Virus record (IMG/VR): IMGVR_UViG_3300009124_000071
Location: 1-29,796 of that record
Length of the DNA stretch: 29,796 bases
Strand: one strand, 5' to 3'
DNA from: a virus
In this document: positions 17,917 through 27,164 of the stretch, one piece after another
Layout of the letters: the number at the start of each line of letters is the position of its first letter
Position numbering within the stretch: the first letter of the stretch is position 1
Notes under the pieces: generated by a model
What the model was told of the DNA's origin: nothing
The model's database searches: none
What the model saw: the letters and a program-made list of their open reading frames with translations, nothing else
Program-made: the position numbers and the translations under genes

Positions 17917-18149
17917 GCGGCACAACTTGGCTCTTGCGCTTTGGCGATAAGGACTGGCGGCACCATGTCCACAAGGCTGCGCAGGATTGGAAATTCCGGG
18001 CCACCCTCAAGCCGCGGCTAGATCGCGCTGTTGAGGATTGGCACAAGACCCAACCAGCTGCGGTGCCGCCGCCAATCATTAGCAGCGATGAGCTGCGCAT
18101 AACTGCACCCTGGGCCACCAATGAGCAATCCAGCGACGATCACCCTTGA
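17913..18149 (+). CDS. Unknown 78-codon frame, reached by frameshift or from TTG 17934
   Basis: This frame carries a soluble sequence rich in Trp, His, Lys and Arg (FGDKDWRHHVHKAAQDWKF, LKPRLDRAVEDWHK), then Pro-rich and acidic parts (AAVPPPIISSDELR). It has no ATG or GTG near the front. TTG 17934 is the only usable internal start, and the nearest AGG is about 16 nt before it. A -1 shift at 17907-17913 would fuse it to the 45-aa hydrophobic protein (123 aa in all). The end overlaps the endolysin by 29 nt. The function is not recognised. Confidence 0.5.
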   Translation, partial: VGGTTWLLRFGDKDWRHHVHKAAQDWKFRATLKPRLDRAVEDWHKTQPAAVPPPIISSDELRITAPWATNEQSSDDHP

Positions 18150-19200
18150 GCAGCTGTTTCGCTACTACAAGGCGTTGCCCCACCAGGCCGCGGCGATCAA
18201 AGAGCTAGAGGCTGACCTAGAGGCCAACGGCTACGAAACGGCCATGCGCCGTGATCGGGCTTGGTTCAAAACCTGGAGCCAAGACGGCAAGCAAGCCAAC
18301 CTTGCGGCAGCGATCGCGCTGATCAAGGAGTTTGAGGGCGTCCACCTCTCGGCGTACCCCGACCCGCTGAGCGGCGGCGAGCCTTGGACCATTGGCTACG
18401 GCACCACGCGCTATAGCGGCGGCTTGCCGGTCAAACGCGGCGATCGGATCACGATCATCGAAGCCGACATGCTGTTGCGGCTTGAGGTGGATCGGATCGC
18501 TGAAAAGCTGCGCACCAGCGTGCCGTTCTGGAAAGAAATGGACGACAACCAAAAGTCGGCCTTGGTGTCGTTTGCCTACAACCTCGGTTCTGGTTTCGTC
18601 GGCTCTGCGGGTTTTGAGACGATCAGCCGCTGCCTGAAAGAAAAGGACTGGGCCGGAGTGCCTGCTGCTCTGGAGCTGTACCGCAACCCTGGTACCAACG
18701 TGGAGGCGGGCCTGCTGCGGCGGCGTAAGGCTGAGGGCGAATGCTGGGGCACCCATAGGCCGCAGTATCAGCAGCAAACGGCAAAGCTAAGCATTGACGC
18801 GCCTTTTACGGCCAGGCTGACGCCCCACGTCACCTTGGGCGAATTTGCGCTTAATGAGGAGGCGCGGCGGTTTGATCGGGCTGACCAGCTAGAAATCGCC
18901 GCTGAGCTGGCCGCGTTCTTAGAGCGTGTGCGCGTGGCGTTTGGCGGCAAACCGATCATCATCACCTCGGGCTATCGGCCGCCTGAAGTGAACCGCGCGG
19001 TCAATGGAGCCAGCAACAGCGAGCACCTCTACAAGCCCGGTTGCGGCGCGGTTGATTTCTACATCGACGGCGCCGACATTTACAAGGTCGAGGATTGGTG
19101 TGACAAAAACTGGCCGTATTCGATCGGCTACGGCGCTGGCAAGGGATTTGTGCATGTAGGCATTCGCAGCAGCAGGGCTAAGGTCCGATGGGATTACTAA
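18121..19200 (+). CDS. Bifunctional endolysin: GH24 muramidase + M15 peptidase
   Basis: A 359-aa lysin. Residues about 60-212 are a T4-type lysozyme: Glu72 (EFEG), Asp81 (AYPDP) and Thr90 (WTIGYGTT) match the E-x8-D-x(5-8)-T triad, and WKEMDDNQKSALVSFAYNLG with GLLRRRKAE are typical of GH24. Residues about 235-359 are a zinc M15/YcbK-like D-Ala-D-Ala carboxypeptidase: SGYRPPEVNRAVNGASNSEH gives His302, GAVDF gives Asp312, and GFVHVGI gives His345. It should cut both the glycan strands and the stem peptide. No signal peptide or lipobox is seen, so a holin is needed for release. Confidence 0.95.
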   Translation: MSNPATITLEQLFRYYKALPHQAAAIKELEADLEANGYETAMRRDRAWFKTWSQDGKQANLAAAIALIKEFEGVHLSAYPDPLSGGEPWTIGYGTTRYSGGLPVKRGDRITIIEADMLLRLEVDRIAEKLRTSVPFWKEMDDNQKSALVSFAYNLGSGFVGSAGFETISRCLKEKDWAGVPAALELYRNPGTNVEAGLLRRRKAEGECWGTHRPQYQQQTAKLSIDAPFTARLTPHVTLGEFALNEEARRFDRADQLEIAAELAAFLERVRVAFGGKPIIITSGYRPPEVNRAVNGASNSEHLYKPGCGAVDFYIDGADIYKVEDWCDKNWPYSIGYGAGKGFVHVGIRSSRAKVRWDY

Positions 19201-21589: not shown

Positions 21590-21810
21590 GCGCCCAGTTT
21601 GGCTATGAGCCGGTCTAAATACCAACGGCATTTCTGGGCATTTTCCAAAGGATCACCTTTAAGCCAAAGCCGCAGCAAATACTTGATCGCGTTGCCGTGG
21701 CAATACGCAGTAGGCATGTCGGGCGCATCCTGAATGGCGCTTTCGATCATTTCGATCACCTCGACTGGCCCGCGGTTGTAGTGCGGCGGGTGGTTCACGT
21801 TGTCAGTCAT
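21586..21810 (-). CDS. DUF3310 family protein
   Basis: A 74-aa protein with the full DUF3310 signature: VNHPPHYNRGPVEVIEMIES (residues 4-23), a short linker, then HGNAIKYLLRLWLKG and CRWYLDRLI. The family is common in phage early regions and is sometimes annotated as nucleotide-kinase-associated; its biochemical role is not settled. The start at ATG 21810 forms an 8-nt overlap (ATGACTGA) with the preceding gene. Confidence 0.88.
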   Translation of the reverse strand: MTDNVNHPPHYNRGPVEVIEMIESAIQDAPDMPTAYCHGNAIKYLLRLWLKGDPLENAQKCRWYLDRLIAKLGA

Positions 21811-22009
21811 CAAGCCAGGCCCATAGGCGTCGATTAACTATGTGCGAAACATGCTCGCGGCAAACGCCAAACTCGCAACACAGTTGGATGGTGGTCCACC
21901 CGTTGCGGCGTAGTTCGCGCATTCTGCGGACTTGATCAGCTGTCAGCTTGGCCGCCGGATTGTCGGCGCCAGTTTTGAACCGGCGCCCTTCTGGCATTGC
22001 TCGTTTCAT
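21803..22009 (-). CDS. Helix-turn-helix protein, 68 aa
   Basis: Basic N-terminus (MKRAMPEGRRFKTGADNPAA) followed by a helix-turn-helix unit: LTADQVRRMRELRRNGWTT as the first helices, then IQLCCEFGVCREHVSHIVNR as the recognition unit. The pattern KLT-x-[DE]QV...I...FGVS-x-x-xVS-x-IV-x-x-x-W resembles DNA-binding modules found at the end of phage HNH nucleases and in small regulators. Here it stands alone. It starts at the ATGA shared with the gene upstream. Confidence 0.72.
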   Translation of the reverse strand: MKRAMPEGRRFKTGADNPAAKLTADQVRRMRELRRNGWTTIQLCCEFGVCREHVSHIVNRRLWAWLDD

Positions 22010-22269
22010 TTCCACTTACCTAGTAGTTCAGCGCGGCAGACCTGGATGGCCTGCTGGGCCTGCTTCTGGGTCATTACTGACTCAGTGGCATCCATAGCCT
22101 TGCCGACCTTGCGCAGAAGCTCCGGGTAGTCCGTATCTCGAAAGTTCGCGGCAATGTCGCGGCAGAACTCTTCCCATAGTCCGGTGTAAGTGCCACAGGT
22201 ACGGCCGCTCTTGGCATAGAGCGAATCCATCATGTCGGCGCGTTGCTGGTCGAGTTGACGTGAGTTCAT
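22006..22269 (-). CDS. Helical protein, 87 aa, unknown
   Basis: ATG 22269 overlaps the upstream stop (ATGA). The product is mostly helical and charged: MNSRQLDQQRADMMDSLYAK, then TYTGLWEEFCRDIAANFRD and a long helix around LLRKVGKAMDATESVMTQKQ. No domain is recognised. It is one of the tightly overlapping genes of the minus-strand array. Confidence 0.6.
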   Translation of the reverse strand: MNSRQLDQQRADMMDSLYAKSGRTCGTYTGLWEEFCRDIAANFRDTDYPELLRKVGKAMDATESVMTQKQAQQAIQVCRAELLGKWK

Positions 22270-23050: not shown

Positions 23051-23284
23051 TCACACAGCCCCGTCGCCTACAGCCAAGCTCACCGGAACCCGCAACGTCG
23101 GCTTGCTTTGGCCAGTCGGACCAACCCGGCCCCAGCCCACAACCGCTGGGTTGACAGTCAGCTCAACCGTGAACCAAACATGCCCGCACGCTTGGCATTT
23201 CCGCTTGCGCGTCACGCAGTCCGGCTGGTGGCCGTTGGTCGCCGTTGCCCTGATATCGCCACTGCCGCACTTGGGGCAATCCAT
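23051..23284 (-). CDS. Zinc-ribbon protein (NrdR N-terminus-like), 77 aa
   Basis: ATG 23284 starts MDCPKCGSGDIRATATN, followed by RKRKCQACGHVWFTVE. The two C-x2-C knuckles with R-x-R-K-C-x-x-C-G-x-x-[WF]-x-T match the zinc ribbon at the start of the repressor NrdR and related phage ribbons. The ATP-cone that NrdR uses to sense dATP/ATP is absent; the last about 40 residues are low-complexity. It may bind DNA, but a ribonucleotide reductase target is not seen here. Its first gene-proximal bases face the plus-strand gene at 23341 across a 56-nt gap. Confidence 0.75.
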   Translation of the reverse strand: MDCPKCGSGDIRATATNGHQPDCVTRKRKCQACGHVWFTVELTVNPAVVGWGRVGPTGQSKPTLRVPVSLAVGDGAV

Positions 23285-23340
23285 GACCGTTATCGTTGGT
23301 TGTACCCCACCAATAGCACACAATGCATTTCGGGGAATGG

Positions 23341-23520
23341 ATGGCAGTGGAGCTATCCACTGAGCAACAATTTGAGATTGAAAAACAAGCCCGCAAGTTG
23401 CTCGAAAGCGACGACGCGGGCGTATTTGCAGCGGCGCTGCTGAAACAGTGCTGCTATCAGCAGCAGCTGCTCCAGCAAGCCGTCAATGAAATCGCTCGCC
23501 TCGAATGCGAGTTGATGTGA
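23341..23520 (+). CDS. Small helical protein, tentative NblA-like, 59 aa
   Basis: ATG 23341 with a GGGGA just before it is preferred over ATG 23323, which has no ribosome site. The product begins MAVELSTEQQFEIEKQARKL and has a second helix LLKQCCYQQQLLQQAVNEIA. NblA proteins (about 60 aa, phycobilisome degradation, also carried by some freshwater cyanophages) start with a closely similar L-[ST]-x-EQ-x-F-x-[LI] motif, then a helix-loop-helix with paired leucines. A different small cyanobacterial family shares this opening, so I cannot decide by eye. It is the only plus-strand gene between two stretches of the minus-strand array and thus has its own promoter. Confidence 0.6.
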   Translation: MAVELSTEQQFEIEKQARKLLESDDAGVFAAALLKQCCYQQQLLQQAVNEIARLECELM

Positions 23521-23835
23521 TCAGAACATGTCGCCTTCAACCTCAACCACCTGGCCGTCAAATGCCTGAGCAAGCTTCTGCGCGCCATTGCCAGGATCCA
23601 CCCAGTCGCGCGGAGGCTGACCCACTGCGCTGATGTAGTTCAGACCCGACTTGGCCTGTTTCTTCCAGCCGCTGATCGGCACTTGGACCGAGCCGTATTG
23701 ATCCGGCGTCTGGCTCATCACAAAGCGGCAGAGCGCGTCCAGCTCTTCCACCTTGATATTCATCATTCCCGAAAAGTCGATCTTGCTGTCGGGCTTGGTG
23801 CTCTTGAAGATGCTCAGGTTCAGCTTGAAGCTCAT
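23521..23835 (-). CDS. Protein of recombination cluster, 104 aa, unknown
   Basis: ATG 23835 overlaps the preceding stop by ATGA. The product begins MSFKLNLSIFKSTKPDSKID, continues with MNIKVEELDALCRFVMSQ, then VQVPISGWKKQAKSGLNYIS, and ends with an acidic VVEVEGDMF. The beta-rich body with an acidic C-terminal tail is the general form of phage single-strand DNA-binding proteins, and it is downstream of recE/recT-like genes where SSB is often found. The fold cannot be confirmed, so this is a suggestion only. Confidence 0.65.
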   Translation of the reverse strand: MSFKLNLSIFKSTKPDSKIDFSGMMNIKVEELDALCRFVMSQTPDQYGSVQVPISGWKKQAKSGLNYISAVGQPPRDWVDPGNGAQKLAQAFDGQVVEVEGDMF

Positions 23836-24023
23836 TGTTCGTTGTGGGTGATGGTGTTGGCCTGTTCGTATTGCTCCACCTCGGCCAGTGGGTAGAGCAC
23901 GCGCCGACCGATCCGCACAAATGGCGGGCCAGTGCCGGCTGATCGCCAACTGATCAAAGTCTGGCGATGCATTTGCCAGCGATCAGCGAGCTGCAAATCA
24001 GTCAAAAACTCAGAAGAGTTCAT
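23832..24023 (-). CDS. Excisionase/MerR-type HTH DNA-binding protein
   Basis: A 63-aa protein of the HTH_17/AlpA-like group: FLTDLQLADRWQMHRQTLIS (helix-turn-helix), W-R-S-A-G-T-G-P-P-F wing start, then RIGRRVLYPLAEVEQYEQ. Such proteins act as excisionases or as promoter regulators. No integrase is seen in the window, so a regulatory role for the recombination operon is equally likely. It overlaps recT by 14 nt and the next gene by ATGA. Confidence 0.82.
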   Translation of the reverse strand: MNSSEFLTDLQLADRWQMHRQTLISWRSAGTGPPFVRIGRRVLYPLAEVEQYEQANTITHNEQ

Positions 24024-24657
24024 CCTCGTCAGCCTTGGGTTGTTCCGCCACCTTGGCGTTTAGATCTGCCACTGGCGAGGTGATTTGGACCTCCTCTATG
24101 TCGATGGCCTCTTCCTGGGTGTGGGTGATGCCTACCAGCAGCTCGGGCACATACAGCCGGCCCCACATTGCAGCGCAGCGATAGCGGATCATTAGCTCCG
24201 GCATCGTGCGCCACTTGCTGCCGCTTTTGGTCGCCCAGCCCTCAGCCTTGGCCATTGCCATCGTGACCGTGGGGCCTGTCAGATCCTTGCCCGTCGCTTT
24301 TTCCTTGGCCACGGCGTAGCAGGCCAGATCATCGCCCTTGCCGCTCATCTCGTACCGCAGCGGCTCAAAACGCCCGCAGCCGTTGATCAGGGCAATGATG
24401 AACTGGCTAGACCAGCTCGGGCGGCCGTGGATGATATGCAGATTCTGCATAACCTGCAGCGGGCTTAGCCCCATCCGGCCTGCAATCTCCAAGGCCACCA
24501 ACGTATTGGCCAGGCCCTGCTGCCCTTGGAACTGAGGCGGCACCAAGCTGCTGCTAGCCAACGCCTTGGCGATCCGCTGGGCATCCTCGAATGCCTGGAT
24601 CCCGCCAAAGACGTTGCCCGAACTGGTGGTGGTTAGTGCTGAATTTTGATCAGTCAT
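24010..24657 (-). CDS. recT: RecT family single-strand annealing protein
   Basis: A 215-aa RecT homologue. The conserved core runs from LANTLVALEIAGRMGLSPLQ (about 49-68) through VMQNLHIIHGRPSWSSQF, GWATKSGSKW and MPELMIRYRCAAMWGRLYVPELL. The C-terminus is acidic and disordered, typical of proteins that bind SSB or are regulated by their tail. RecT anneals single strands made by the paired exonuclease. It starts in the 8-nt overlap ATGACTGA with the 77-aa gene, and the RecE-like gene lies two genes upstream in the same operon. Confidence 0.93.
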   Translation of the reverse strand: MTDQNSALTTTSSGNVFGGIQAFEDAQRIAKALASSSLVPPQFQGQQGLANTLVALEIAGRMGLSPLQVMQNLHIIHGRPSWSSQFIIALINGCGRFEPLRYEMSGKGDDLACYAVAKEKATGKDLTGPTVTMAMAKAEGWATKSGSKWRTMPELMIRYRCAAMWGRLYVPELLVGITHTQEEAIDIEEVQITSPVADLNAKVAEQPKADEDELF

Positions 24658-24883
24658 TTTTTAGACGGCTTAGAACCATTTCGCGGATTTCCTGGATTTC
24701 GTCATCGCCCATGTCAGGCGGAAAATCTCGAAAATCCTTGCTGCTATGACGCCAACGCAATACATCGTCGATATACATGTGCTCCCCTGCACCAAGCGCA
24801 GTCAACACATAGCTAACTGCTTGGCTGAAACCTCGGCGGTAGCCAACTTCTTCGCTCAAACTTCTGGTCTTAAATGGTTCCAT
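24650..24883 (-). CDS. Small protein between exonuclease and RecT, 77 aa
   Basis: ATG 24883 is 2 nt after the exonuclease stop and is preferred over TTG 24889. The product begins MEPFKTRSLSEEVGYRRGFS, has a helix QAVSYVLTALGAG, and ends with an acidic helix (DDEIQEIREMVLSRLKN). No family is recognised. Its position between the RecE- and RecT-like genes makes an accessory recombination role plausible. Confidence 0.65.
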   Translation of the reverse strand: MEPFKTRSLSEEVGYRRGFSQAVSYVLTALGAGEHMYIDDVLRWRHSSKDFRDFPPDMGDDEIQEIREMVLSRLKND

Positions 24884-24885
24884 GC

Positions 24886-25728
24886 TCAAAATCCCTCAAT
24901 GTTGTCGGTGAGTGGTTGTTGGGCATTGCTGCCTTTTTTTGCCCAGTCCGGCAGGGTGAGCGTTTCGATCGCATCGCTGTAGCTGGGCCAGCGATCAGCC
25001 TCCCGGCAGTCGGCAAGCTTCTGCAGATCGCGCTGGCATTGTTGCCATCCGTGCTCGATCAGCTCTTGGTCTGCGGCGTAGACCCCAACGCCATAAGGCG
25101 CCTCGGTTTCGACCGCAATAAAGATGAACGCTTCCGGCCTGATGCCGGTGCTCTGCTCGACGCCGTGGCTGTACCAGGCCGCTTGCACGCCATAGCGAAA
25201 CTGCATGACGCTGTGCCGAAAGCCCCGAGGGCTGGCGTCGCGTGTGCTCTTCAGGTCAACAACGATCTTGCAATCGTCGCTCATCCAGTCCGGCCGGCAT
25301 TTGCACTGCAGACCCGTGGCACTGTCGCGCCACATGTGAGTCGTCTCGGCTTTGCCGGCCATGCCAAGCAGCATCGCCGCAGCTGGGTGCTTCCACACAG
25401 CCCGGCCCATGTGCTGCACCGTTTCGCCCTCGTCGGCAGTTAGGACCTGCTTGCCCTGGGAGATGACCTGGAACTGCGCCCAGGCTTCTTTGCCTGCTTT
25501 GGTCCGGCGGTCAATGCCAGCAGGCGCCACGGCCCATTCCTCGTCCCACTTGCTCAGCTCCAGCGTGTGGGTGTGGAACGCGCTGCCAAGCCGCATGGAT
25601 GGAGTCGGCTCAGGGATGACCCGTTTGGGGTCCACATACCGCGCCCAGTAATGCAGTGGACTGCGGGCGATTTTGTCGAGGTGGCTTTTGCTGATCGCTG
25701 GGTGCGCGTGATACTCGGCGTTGTCCAT
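24886..25728 (-). CDS. recE: RecE-like exonuclease (PD-(D/E)XK)
   Basis: A 280-aa exonuclease VIII-type protein, using ATG 25728 (a TTG 12 nt upstream is also in frame). It has the family start YHAHPAISKSHLDKIARSPL and the HYWARYVDP motif. MRLGSAFHTHTLE is near residue 45-57. The catalytic core is CRPDW (Asp147), then VVDLKST (Asp158, Lys160) and the Q-x-R-Y-G-x-Q-A-A-W-Y helix. It digests one strand of a duplex end and hands the other to RecT. It is about the size of the RecE nuclease domain (C-terminal part of E. coli RecE). The start faces the helicase gene across 53 nt. Confidence 0.92.
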   Translation of the reverse strand: MDNAEYHAHPAISKSHLDKIARSPLHYWARYVDPKRVIPEPTPSMRLGSAFHTHTLELSKWDEEWAVAPAGIDRRTKAGKEAWAQFQVISQGKQVLTADEGETVQHMGRAVWKHPAAAMLLGMAGKAETTHMWRDSATGLQCKCRPDWMSDDCKIVVDLKSTRDASPRGFRHSVMQFRYGVQAAWYSHGVEQSTGIRPEAFIFIAVETEAPYGVGVYAADQELIEHGWQQCQRDLQKLADCREADRWPSYSDAIETLTLPDWAKKGSNAQQPLTDNIEGF

Positions 25729-25780
25729 AGGTTGTGGCAACTTGCGGCAGGCTATAGCCTCTTGCCAGCCAATGCAACCT
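25729..25780. promoter_or_regulatory. Symmetrical 52-bp element between divergent recE-like and helicase genes
   Basis: AGGCTATAGCCT (25749-25760) is a perfect 12-bp palindrome. AGGTTG (25729-25734) and CAACCT (25775-25780) are inverted arms placed at exactly equal distance on either side. TATAGC in the centre can be read as a -10 on both strands, with TTGTGG or TTGCAT as poor -35 elements about 15 nt away. It fills the whole gap, with arms next to both start codons, so it could be a shared promoter and operator. Confidence 0.6.
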
Positions 25781-25781
25781 G

Positions 25782-27164
25782 ATGCAGCTCAGGCCCTACC
25801 AAACCCAGGCCATCGACGATCTCCGCAACGCCTACCGATCCGGTAGCCGTGCGCCTCTCCTATGCCTACCGACCGGCGGCGGTAAGACCGTGATTTTTAC
25901 CGCCATTGCCCAAGCAGCAGCAGCCAAGGGCAATAACGTTCTGATCTTGGTGCATCGCCGGGAGCTGCTACGCCAAGCCAGCGCCAAGCTGCGCGCTGTT
26001 GGCCTCCCGCACAGCACCATTGCAGCCGGATTGCCCATCAGGTCGAATCAGGTGCAAGTCGCCTCGGTTCAAACGCTGATCCGCCGCCTGTCGCGTTTCG
26101 ACTGGCAACCGGGGCTAATCATCATCGATGAGGCCCACCACGCTGTAGCTGGTAGCTGGGGCAAGATCCTGGCCCATTGGCCCGACGCCTTCCGCCTTGG
26201 CGTATCCGCCACCCCATGCCGCCTAGACGGCCGCGGCCTAGGCAATGCATTCGACCAGCTGGTGCTAGGCCCTGCAGTCGCGCAGCTCACTGAATCCGGC
26301 TATTTGGCAGATGCGCGTATTTATGCGCCGCCTGTTCTTGCAAACCTGAGCAACCTGCACACCCGCGCGGGTGATTACGCCACCGATGAGGCCGCCGACG
26401 CAATGGATCGCCCCACGGTCACTGGCGACGCTGTGGATCACTACCAGCGCCATGCAACAGGCCAGCCGGCCATCGCCTTTTGCTGCAATACCAAACACGC
26501 CGCATCAGTCGCCCGGCAGTTTCAAGCAGCAGGCATCAACGCCGCCACACTGCTAGGCACAAACAAGCCAGAAGAGCGCGACCAGCTGGTGGCCGACCTT
26601 GGCTCTGGTGCCCTGCAGGTCCTAGTCACTGTTGACGTAGTTTCCGAGGGTTTCGACTGCCCCGGTGCCTCTGTTGCCATCCTGCTGCGGCCTACCAAGT
26701 CCGAATCGCTCTACCTGCAGCAAGTCGGCCGGGTGCTCAGACCCAAGCCCGATGGCAGCAAAGCGCTGATCCTTGATCACGTCGGCAACGTCATGCGCCA
26801 CGGCTTTCCTGACGATGTGCGCGAGTGGTCGCTGTCTGATGGCCTCAGACGTGCCAGCCGGGGAAGCGCAGCGCCAACCGTGCGCACATGCCCCAGCTGT
26901 TATGCAGCATTCAAGCCGCAGCCTGTCTGCCCCGTATGCGGCACCGATTGCGCGCCTAAGGCCAAGCGCGGCATGGCCCAGGTGGATGGGGAGCTGCAGG
27001 AGCTGCGCCGGGAGGCTGTCCAGCAGCGAATCGCAGAGCGGACTAGCCACAGACGCGAGCAGGGACGCGCCCGCACTCTGCAGCAGCTGCTGGCACTGGC
27101 TAAGGAACGCGGTTACTCGCAAGGCTGGGCGTACAAGGTGCACGCTTCACGCGGTGGGCGCTAG
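25782..27164 (+). CDS. DEAD/DEAH-box helicase, superfamily 2
   Basis: A 460-aa SF2 helicase. Motifs seen are the Q-motif-like LRPYQTQAI (3-11), Walker A LPTGGGKT (29-36), motif Ia VHRREL, motif Ib VQTL, DEAH (116-119), SAT (142-144), motif IV-V region (VVSEGFDCPG), and QQVGRVLRP (313-321). After the core are two C-x2-C knuckles (Cys370, Cys373, Cys383, Cys386) of a zinc ribbon and a basic, Arg/Gln-rich C-terminal helix. It is likely a replicative or recombination accessory helicase that unwinds branched DNA. VRR-NUC and primase genes follow on the same strand. Confidence 0.95.
   Translation: MQLRPYQTQAIDDLRNAYRSGSRAPLLCLPTGGGKTVIFTAIAQAAAAKGNNVLILVHRRELLRQASAKLRAVGLPHSTIAAGLPIRSNQVQVASVQTLIRRLSRFDWQPGLIIIDEAHHAVAGSWGKILAHWPDAFRLGVSATPCRLDGRGLGNAFDQLVLGPAVAQLTESGYLADARIYAPPVLANLSNLHTRAGDYATDEAADAMDRPTVTGDAVDHYQRHATGQPAIAFCCNTKHAASVARQFQAAGINAATLLGTNKPEERDQLVADLGSGALQVLVTVDVVSEGFDCPGASVAILLRPTKSESLYLQQVGRVLRPKPDGSKALILDHVGNVMRHGFPDDVREWSLSDGLRRASRGSAAPTVRTCPSCYAAFKPQPVCPVCGTDCAPKAKRGMAQVDGELQELRREAVQQRIAERTSHRREQGRARTLQQLLALAKERGYSQGWAYKVHASRGGR

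Follow-up and report, generated by a model that had tools for sequence, protein, structure and literature searches.

A probable mirrored promoter pair under a 10-bp phased array between the recE operon and a helicase gene of an uncultured phage: a candidate Apl/Cox-like operator

RESULTS

Genes on either side of the recE-helicase gap

The window analyzed here is the whole 29,796-nucleotide stretch of IMG/VR record IMGVR_UViG_3300009124_000071. In it, a leftward operon headed by a recE-like gene and a rightward helicase gene are separated by a divergent gap of 53 bp. The genes concerned are as follows.

24886–25728, − strand: recE-like exonuclease VIII (PD-(D/E)XK), first gene of the operon (phrog_412, E 1.8e-91; PF12684, E 1.7e-39)
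24650–24889, − strand: small operon ORF, syntenic, without a family match
24010–24657, − strand: recT-like annealing protein (phrog_561, E 1.2e-79)
23832–24023, − strand: 63-aa winged-helix HTH_17 protein, RdfS/BldC/Xis-like, candidate array binder (PF12728, E 3.6e-8)
23521–23835, − strand: last operon gene, a possible SSB by position only; synteny conserved, without a family match
25782–27164, + strand: SF2 helicase (ResIII/Helicase_C; phrog_16, E 7.2e-105; PF04851, PF00271)

Within the recE operon, each reading frame overlaps its neighbor by 4 to 14 bp; an ATG six bases later may be the start of the second gene. Rightward, the helicase gene is followed by genes for a VRR-NUC protein and a prim-pol/VapE protein. 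Elsewhere in the window, the gene g65 (23323–23520, + strand) encodes a 65-aa protein without a family match; in many relatives its conservation is 80 to 95%, against only about 65% for their other genes. Conserved beside it in many relatives is a gene for an NrdR-like zinc-ribbon protein (window 23051–23284, − strand; PF22811, E 2.6e-7) without the ATP-cone. A 70-aa HTH protein (21803–22015, − strand) weakly resembles HNH-endonuclease and late-activator DNA-binding domains (phrog_20467, phrog_836), and an endolysin (18121–19200, + strand) combines phage lysozyme and M15 peptidase domains. An RNA element was considered and rejected, as the window gave no Rfam match.

Relatives of the locus and their hosts

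We collected about 100 viral loci by helicase and recE searches. Where recE and the helicase gene diverge, the gap is mostly 53, 50, 43, 86, or 144 bp long, and 17 distinct gaps of 53 bp could be aligned without indels. The divergent neighbor of recE in other relatives is a methylase-helicase fusion, a PAPS-reductase/DUF3440 protein, or an unknown protein. The nearest isolates are the Synechococcus siphoviruses S-CBS1, KBS-S-2A, S-H1, and S-LBS1, with 45 to 48% identity in recE and 49% in prim-pol (S-LBS1); they are also nearest in the capsid. At less than 50% identity, these isolates do not establish the host. S-H1 and KBS-S-2A, like the window, keep an HTH homologue downstream of recE; unlike the window, the Synechococcus siphoviruses lack the recE-helicase divergent gap, and recE, where present, lies inside an operon. 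A prophage search for the host returned two metagenome-assembled genome (MAG) contigs, the better one 56% identical and from a beta-proteobacterial bin, and these are an unreliable host call. In one of them, CAIMHL010000448.1 (L137), recE is 56% identical to that of the window; it may be a mis-binned phage contig.

A phage sigma factor was also considered and rejected, since PF04542 is absent from the window and from the 23 IMG/VR relatives tested. Sigma70-like factors (PF04542) do occur in S-CBS1, KBS-S-2A, and S-LBS1 (the records behind L114, L115, and L117).

Exact symmetry of the gap is rarely kept in relatives

The first-pass annotation described a nested symmetrical element in the gap, and we confirmed its coordinates.

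25749–25760, no strand: 12-bp palindrome AGGCTATAGCCT, made of two abutting inverted −10 hexamers
25729–25734, + strand: left outer arm AGGTTG, the helicase −35 TTG plus 3 bp
25775–25780, + strand: right outer arm CAACCT, the reverse complement of the recE −35 TTG, plus 3 bp

Palindrome and arms share a single symmetry center, 25754/25755, and the distance from palindrome to arm is exactly 14 nt on both sides. The arms had been said to abut both start codons. This is true of the left arm (recE ATG, 25728, − strand); the right arm ends 1 base before the helicase ATG (25782).

The 12-bp palindrome by itself is a chance-level object: the window holds 7 perfect palindromes of at least 12 bp, with about 9.3 expected. 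The nested arrangement of palindrome and arms is expected 0.03 times per window, a figure computed post hoc, so that relatives are needed to decide. The mirrored pattern TTG-N14-ANNNTATANNNT-N14-CAA, likewise post hoc, is expected 0.0006 times and occurs once in the window, in this gap. Conservation of the symmetry in relatives had been proposed as a check. We found that the perfect palindrome is kept in 3 of the 17 distinct 53-bp gaps and the 6/6 arm pairing in 4 of the 17; what relatives do conserve is the promoter hexamers and a 10-bp periodicity, described below, that the first-pass annotation had missed. The dyad score is 11 to 17 in helicase-adjacent 53-bp gaps, raised in most of them over a background mean of 10.4, whereas most loci in which the helicase gene is not adjacent score close to background. 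We therefore rejected the palindrome as an operator dyad, both on these scores and because its exact symmetry is not kept.

The symmetry is probably that of two mirrored promoters

Comparison of the gaps supports the view that the symmetry is that of two mirror-image σ70-like promoters, each reading TTG...-N17-TAGNNT.

25749–25754, − strand: recE −10 TAGCCT (TANNNT in 17/17 distinct 53-bp gaps)
25772–25777, − strand: recE −35 TTGCAT, 17-bp spacer (17/17 distinct 53-bp gaps)
25755–25760, + strand: helicase −10 TAGCCT (TANNNT; distal T kept in helicase-adjacent gaps)
25732–25737, + strand: helicase −35 TTGTGG, 17-bp spacer, weak (TTG in 12/17 distinct gaps)

The −10 hexamers abut as the palindrome and the −35 TTGs form the inner half of the arms, which accounts for the exact mirror symmetry. 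On the recE strand, the whole TTGCAT-N17-TANNNT recurs throughout the 17 distinct 53-bp gaps, and so does TAGNNT on the helicase side, with TTG at the corresponding −35 in 12; the gaps share ancestry, so that these counts and those below are not of independent events. The distal T of the helicase −10 (A on the recE strand) is present in 22/22 helicase-adjacent gaps versus 2/24 others, and 22 of those 24 have C or G at this position. In the remaining two (L054 and L061), a helicase gene starts upstream, and they were probably missed by the adjacency filter. The base differs from the repeat-unit consensus described below and is therefore likely to be under separate constraint.

Among other gap classes, the recE promoter of the 50-bp class reads TTGACG-N17-CACAAT, and the 43-bp class allows a reading with two TANNNT boxes that overlap by 2 bases and stand in the opposite order. 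The 86-bp gap of L012–L015 is a different divergent gap, with a recE promoter TTGACT-N17-TATTGT and a divergent HTH protein; immediately ahead of its helicase ATG stand two 10-mers in tandem, GATCGCACCC AATCGCATCC.

Both promoters are weak relative to the Escherichia coli consensus. A consensus scan at 9/12 returned no sites, the matches being limited to the TTG and TANNNT positions; a good match is usual in bidirectional σ70 promoters and is not strictly required. The opposite-strand −10 elements in a pseudo-symmetric core by which such promoters are recognized are present here as TANNNT on both strands, abutting and conserved. From the hexamer positions, we predict start sites at ~25742 (− strand) and ~25767 (+ strand), 25 bp apart. 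The earlier suggestion of two overlapping divergent promoters thus gains comparative support from the hexamers conserved in relatives. The overlap had been ascribed to a common TATAGC, which we did find on both strands of the gap. The conserved hexamers are, however, TAGNNT, and the −10 elements abut without coinciding. We preferred TAGNNT at 17 bp because its distal T is conserved, whereas TATAGC would give 15-bp spacers.

A 10-bp phased array covers both proposed promoters

Superimposed on the promoters is a second regularity.

25730–25789, − strand (recE strand): six tandem 10-bp units, a putative operator, identified by unit scores, a held-out model, and autocorrelation

Read on the recE strand from 25789 down to 25730, the units are AGCTGCATCA (25780–89), GGTTGCATTG (25770–79), GCTGGCAAGA (25760–69), GGCTATAGCC (25750–59), TGCCGCAAGT (25740–49), and TGCCACAACC (25730–39), most of them with a GCA core. 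Their scores run from 3.7 to 9.9, where the 99th percentile of the background is 4.9, and the signal ends at once on either side, where the flanking 10-mers score −11.3 and −4.0. With one unit per helical turn, the array spans both −35/−10 pairs and both predicted start sites. Generic repeat finders did not detect it, because its units are just ~45% alike.

In the 55 bases before recE of 66 distinct loci, identity is 0.435 at lag 10 and 0.393 at lag 20, where 0.26 is expected; further upstream in these loci, lag-10 identity is 0.30. The 62-bp region of the window has a mean identity of 0.439 over lags 10 to 40 (versus 0.256 ± 0.037) and ranks 4 of 29,735 by all-lag identity, itself counted. 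To avoid circularity, we trained a 10-mer model exclusively on loci in which no helicase gene is adjacent (27 loci). On either strand of the window, this held-out model placed the array on top with a score of 17.1, the next place scoring 2.8; the best score on 100 shuffled windows was 15.1. When near-whole contigs were scanned, the recE gap ranked first in 8 of 10, the window included. Both exceptions, G005 and G007, are of the 50-bp class, in which the step across the −10 is, by eye, 19 and not 20, and which failed a strict period-10 test. The 86-bp and 144-bp classes do not have this array.

The period-10 pattern persists across ~60% protein identity despite differing unit sequences, and the array is retained beside recE where the divergent neighbor is another gene. 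Direct repeats at 10 to 11 bp are the hallmark of Apl/Cox/Xis-type operators, and the six units here recur at 10 bp; such arrays lie between or over opposed promoters, as this one does with respect to the promoters deduced from conservation. From these features of the sequence, we infer that the array is an operator. The first-pass idea of a protein site in the gap is thus probably right by way of the 10-bp repeats, but not by way of the palindrome, whose exact symmetry is not kept.

L003 and L005–L008 contain a second 10-bp phased array at ~660–740, left of the helicase gene (for example, G003 24079, + strand), with units TGCCGCACCT ACCCGCAACC TGCAACGTCT ACCCGCACAT CGCTACAGAC TGTCGCAATG TCGGTAGCGT. 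It occupies the divergent gap that precedes the g65 homologue; at this place the window, L002, and L004 have the zinc-ribbon gene instead.

The HTH_17 protein is the candidate binder

The fourth gene of the recE operon encodes a protein that matches phrog_66, "excisionase and transcriptional regulator" (E 1.2e-7). A profile search of solved structures matched it only to RdfS (8dgl, E 3e-4) and BldC (E 0.07). Its structure model is a winged helix (pLDDT 82), and a fold search with this model gave RdfS as the best hit (TM 0.77, rmsd 1.2, E 2.7e-3), followed by BldC-DNA and Pukovnik Xis, among others. The protein is encoded in the operon of nearly all relatives with enough flank. RdfS binds one molecule per 10 bp of DNA (PMC11963761), BldC binds head to tail on direct repeats (PMC5859096), and the sites of Apl of phage 186 are direct repeats 10 to 11 bp apart that lie between and over face-to-face promoters, both of which Apl represses (PMC7498355). 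Apl/Cox/Xis-type systems have a small cognate winged-helix protein encoded by an operon that it controls, and here the recE operon encodes a candidate of the right class. The main argument for the HTH_17 protein is that its class fits the architecture of the DNA, and by this analogy it probably coats the array.

Two observations speak against this. The repeat sequence does not covary with the recognition helix, whose two types, HRQTLISWR and HPDTLMRWR, both occur over arrays of the same units, and the 50-bp class has nearly the same HTH protein in spite of its 19-bp step across the −10. Of the HTH proteins read, those of the array-less 86-bp and 144-bp classes diverge most, which weakly favors the HTH_17 protein as the binder.

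An excisionase would be expected to work with a phage integrase at att, and we found no such partnership. Of 24 records, the distant G021 alone gave a match to tyrosine integrase (PF00589), the window giving none, and serine recombinase (PF00239) was found in 0 of 17, in both cases among records that may be incomplete. Because integrase was found in G021 only and serine recombinase in none, we think that the protein, for all its likeness to excisionases, is probably a regulator; this would not hold if missing parts of the contigs encode an integrase.

DISCUSSION

We consider the gap to be, with fair probability, a bidirectional promoter overlaid by an Apl/Cox-like autoregulatory operator, with the HTH_17 protein as the candidate binder. 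In this model, leftward transcription of the recE-recT-HTH operon would come from one promoter and rightward transcription of the helicase gene from the other. Polymerase bound in one direction would cover the opposite promoter, so that occupancy in vivo would be mutually exclusive. As the HTH_17 protein accumulates from the recE operon, it would fill the array cooperatively from head to tail, and the filled array would occlude both promoters, making the recE operon autoregulated and repressing the helicase gene also, as Apl does at pR-pL. The gap had been proposed to switch between recombination and replication. As a general function this is not supported, since the recE half and the array persist with other divergent neighbors.

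The alternative that we take most seriously, though we think it rather unlikely, accepts the promoters and the phased operator and changes the binder to another phage or host factor, such as the NrdR-like zinc-ribbon protein, or has the binder activate in place of repressing. In its favor, the recognition helix of the HTH protein does not follow the repeats, and the zinc-ribbon gene is also conserved nearby. However, that gene is absent in L003, L005, L007, and L008, all of which bear the array, and to our knowledge NrdR is not associated with 10-bp repeat arrays. Direct repeats can also serve activators, as do the TTGCN6TTGC sites of λ CII, whose two TTGC tetrads flank the −35, but here they cover the predicted start sites, which is the position of a repressor. 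We considered a CII-type site at 25732–25745 (TTGT-N6-TTGC) and rejected it, as its spacing is wrong, with the −10 too near the TTGC pair.

It is improbable that only the two mirrored promoters are real and that the 10-bp periodicity is a slippage relic or a compositional accident. The hexamers alone do explain the dyad, and relatives with 86-bp or 144-bp gaps manage without the array, but the period is kept over ~60% protein identity, with differing units and an exchanged neighbor gene, and a further array of this kind is present in another divergent gap. The element had also been read as an origin or loading site, and the repeats, which adjoin the helicase and prim-pol/VapE genes, could then be iterons. 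We regard this as very improbable: there is neither an AT-rich stretch nor a skew change at the gap, the array follows recE and not a replication gene, also where the helicase gene is not adjacent, and the repeats overlie promoter elements. Hardest to credit is that a short gap is symmetrical by chance. Palindromes of this length are common in the window, and relatives do not preserve the palindrome and arms exactly, but the conservation of hexamers, spacers, and array over many loci already contradicts it.

Beyond the autoregulatory operator itself, it is possible, at somewhat short of even chances, that a phage family in which no integrase is detected uses an excisionase-type, filament-forming protein purely as a transcriptional regulator of recET, with this protein coating the phased array over the mirror-symmetric promoter and the array kept through several exchanges of the divergent partner gene. 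For a phage group that is uncultured and has its nearest isolates on Synechococcus, the gap offers a specific, testable control element for the recombination genes. In this one 60-bp element, the principle of the bidirectional promoter meets that of the head-to-tail winged-helix array, each of them already known. The natural variants (53-, 50-, 43-, and 86-bp gaps, with the helicase gene or another neighbor) provide a comparison set for a divergent promoter that gains or loses its second direction.

What is new here is the phased array; the architecture of the element is a variant of control regions already known. The Apl array at pR/pL of coliphage 186, and likewise the Cox boxes of P2-like phages, consists of direct repeats one turn apart over opposed promoters, and a small winged-helix RDF-type protein is encoded by one of the controlled operons (PMC7498355). 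Unlike Apl's face-to-face promoters, those in the gap diverge from a common −10 region, the operon is recE-recT and not one of lysis/lysogeny, binding is predicted from the sequence, and no tyrosine integrase turned up in the window or in 22 of the 23 relatives searched. In the bidirectional promoters of Warman and Grainger, divergent starts lie 7 to 25 bp apart, most commonly 18 bp, and, as proposed here, the −10 region is pseudo-symmetric and binding in one direction excludes the other (PMC10268837, PMC12825309). In contrast to the usual case, the −10 elements here abut, the predicted 25 bp between starts falls at the edge of that range, and both −35 boxes are mirrored too. BldC of Streptomyces and RdfS of ICEMlSymR7A, the nearest solved relatives of the HTH_17 protein, coat DNA cooperatively, with about one protomer per turn. 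The HTH_17 protein differs from both in being phage encoded within recE-recT, and its presumed repeat consensus is GC-rich and GGCCGCAACT-like, whereas BldC sites are of the AATT type.
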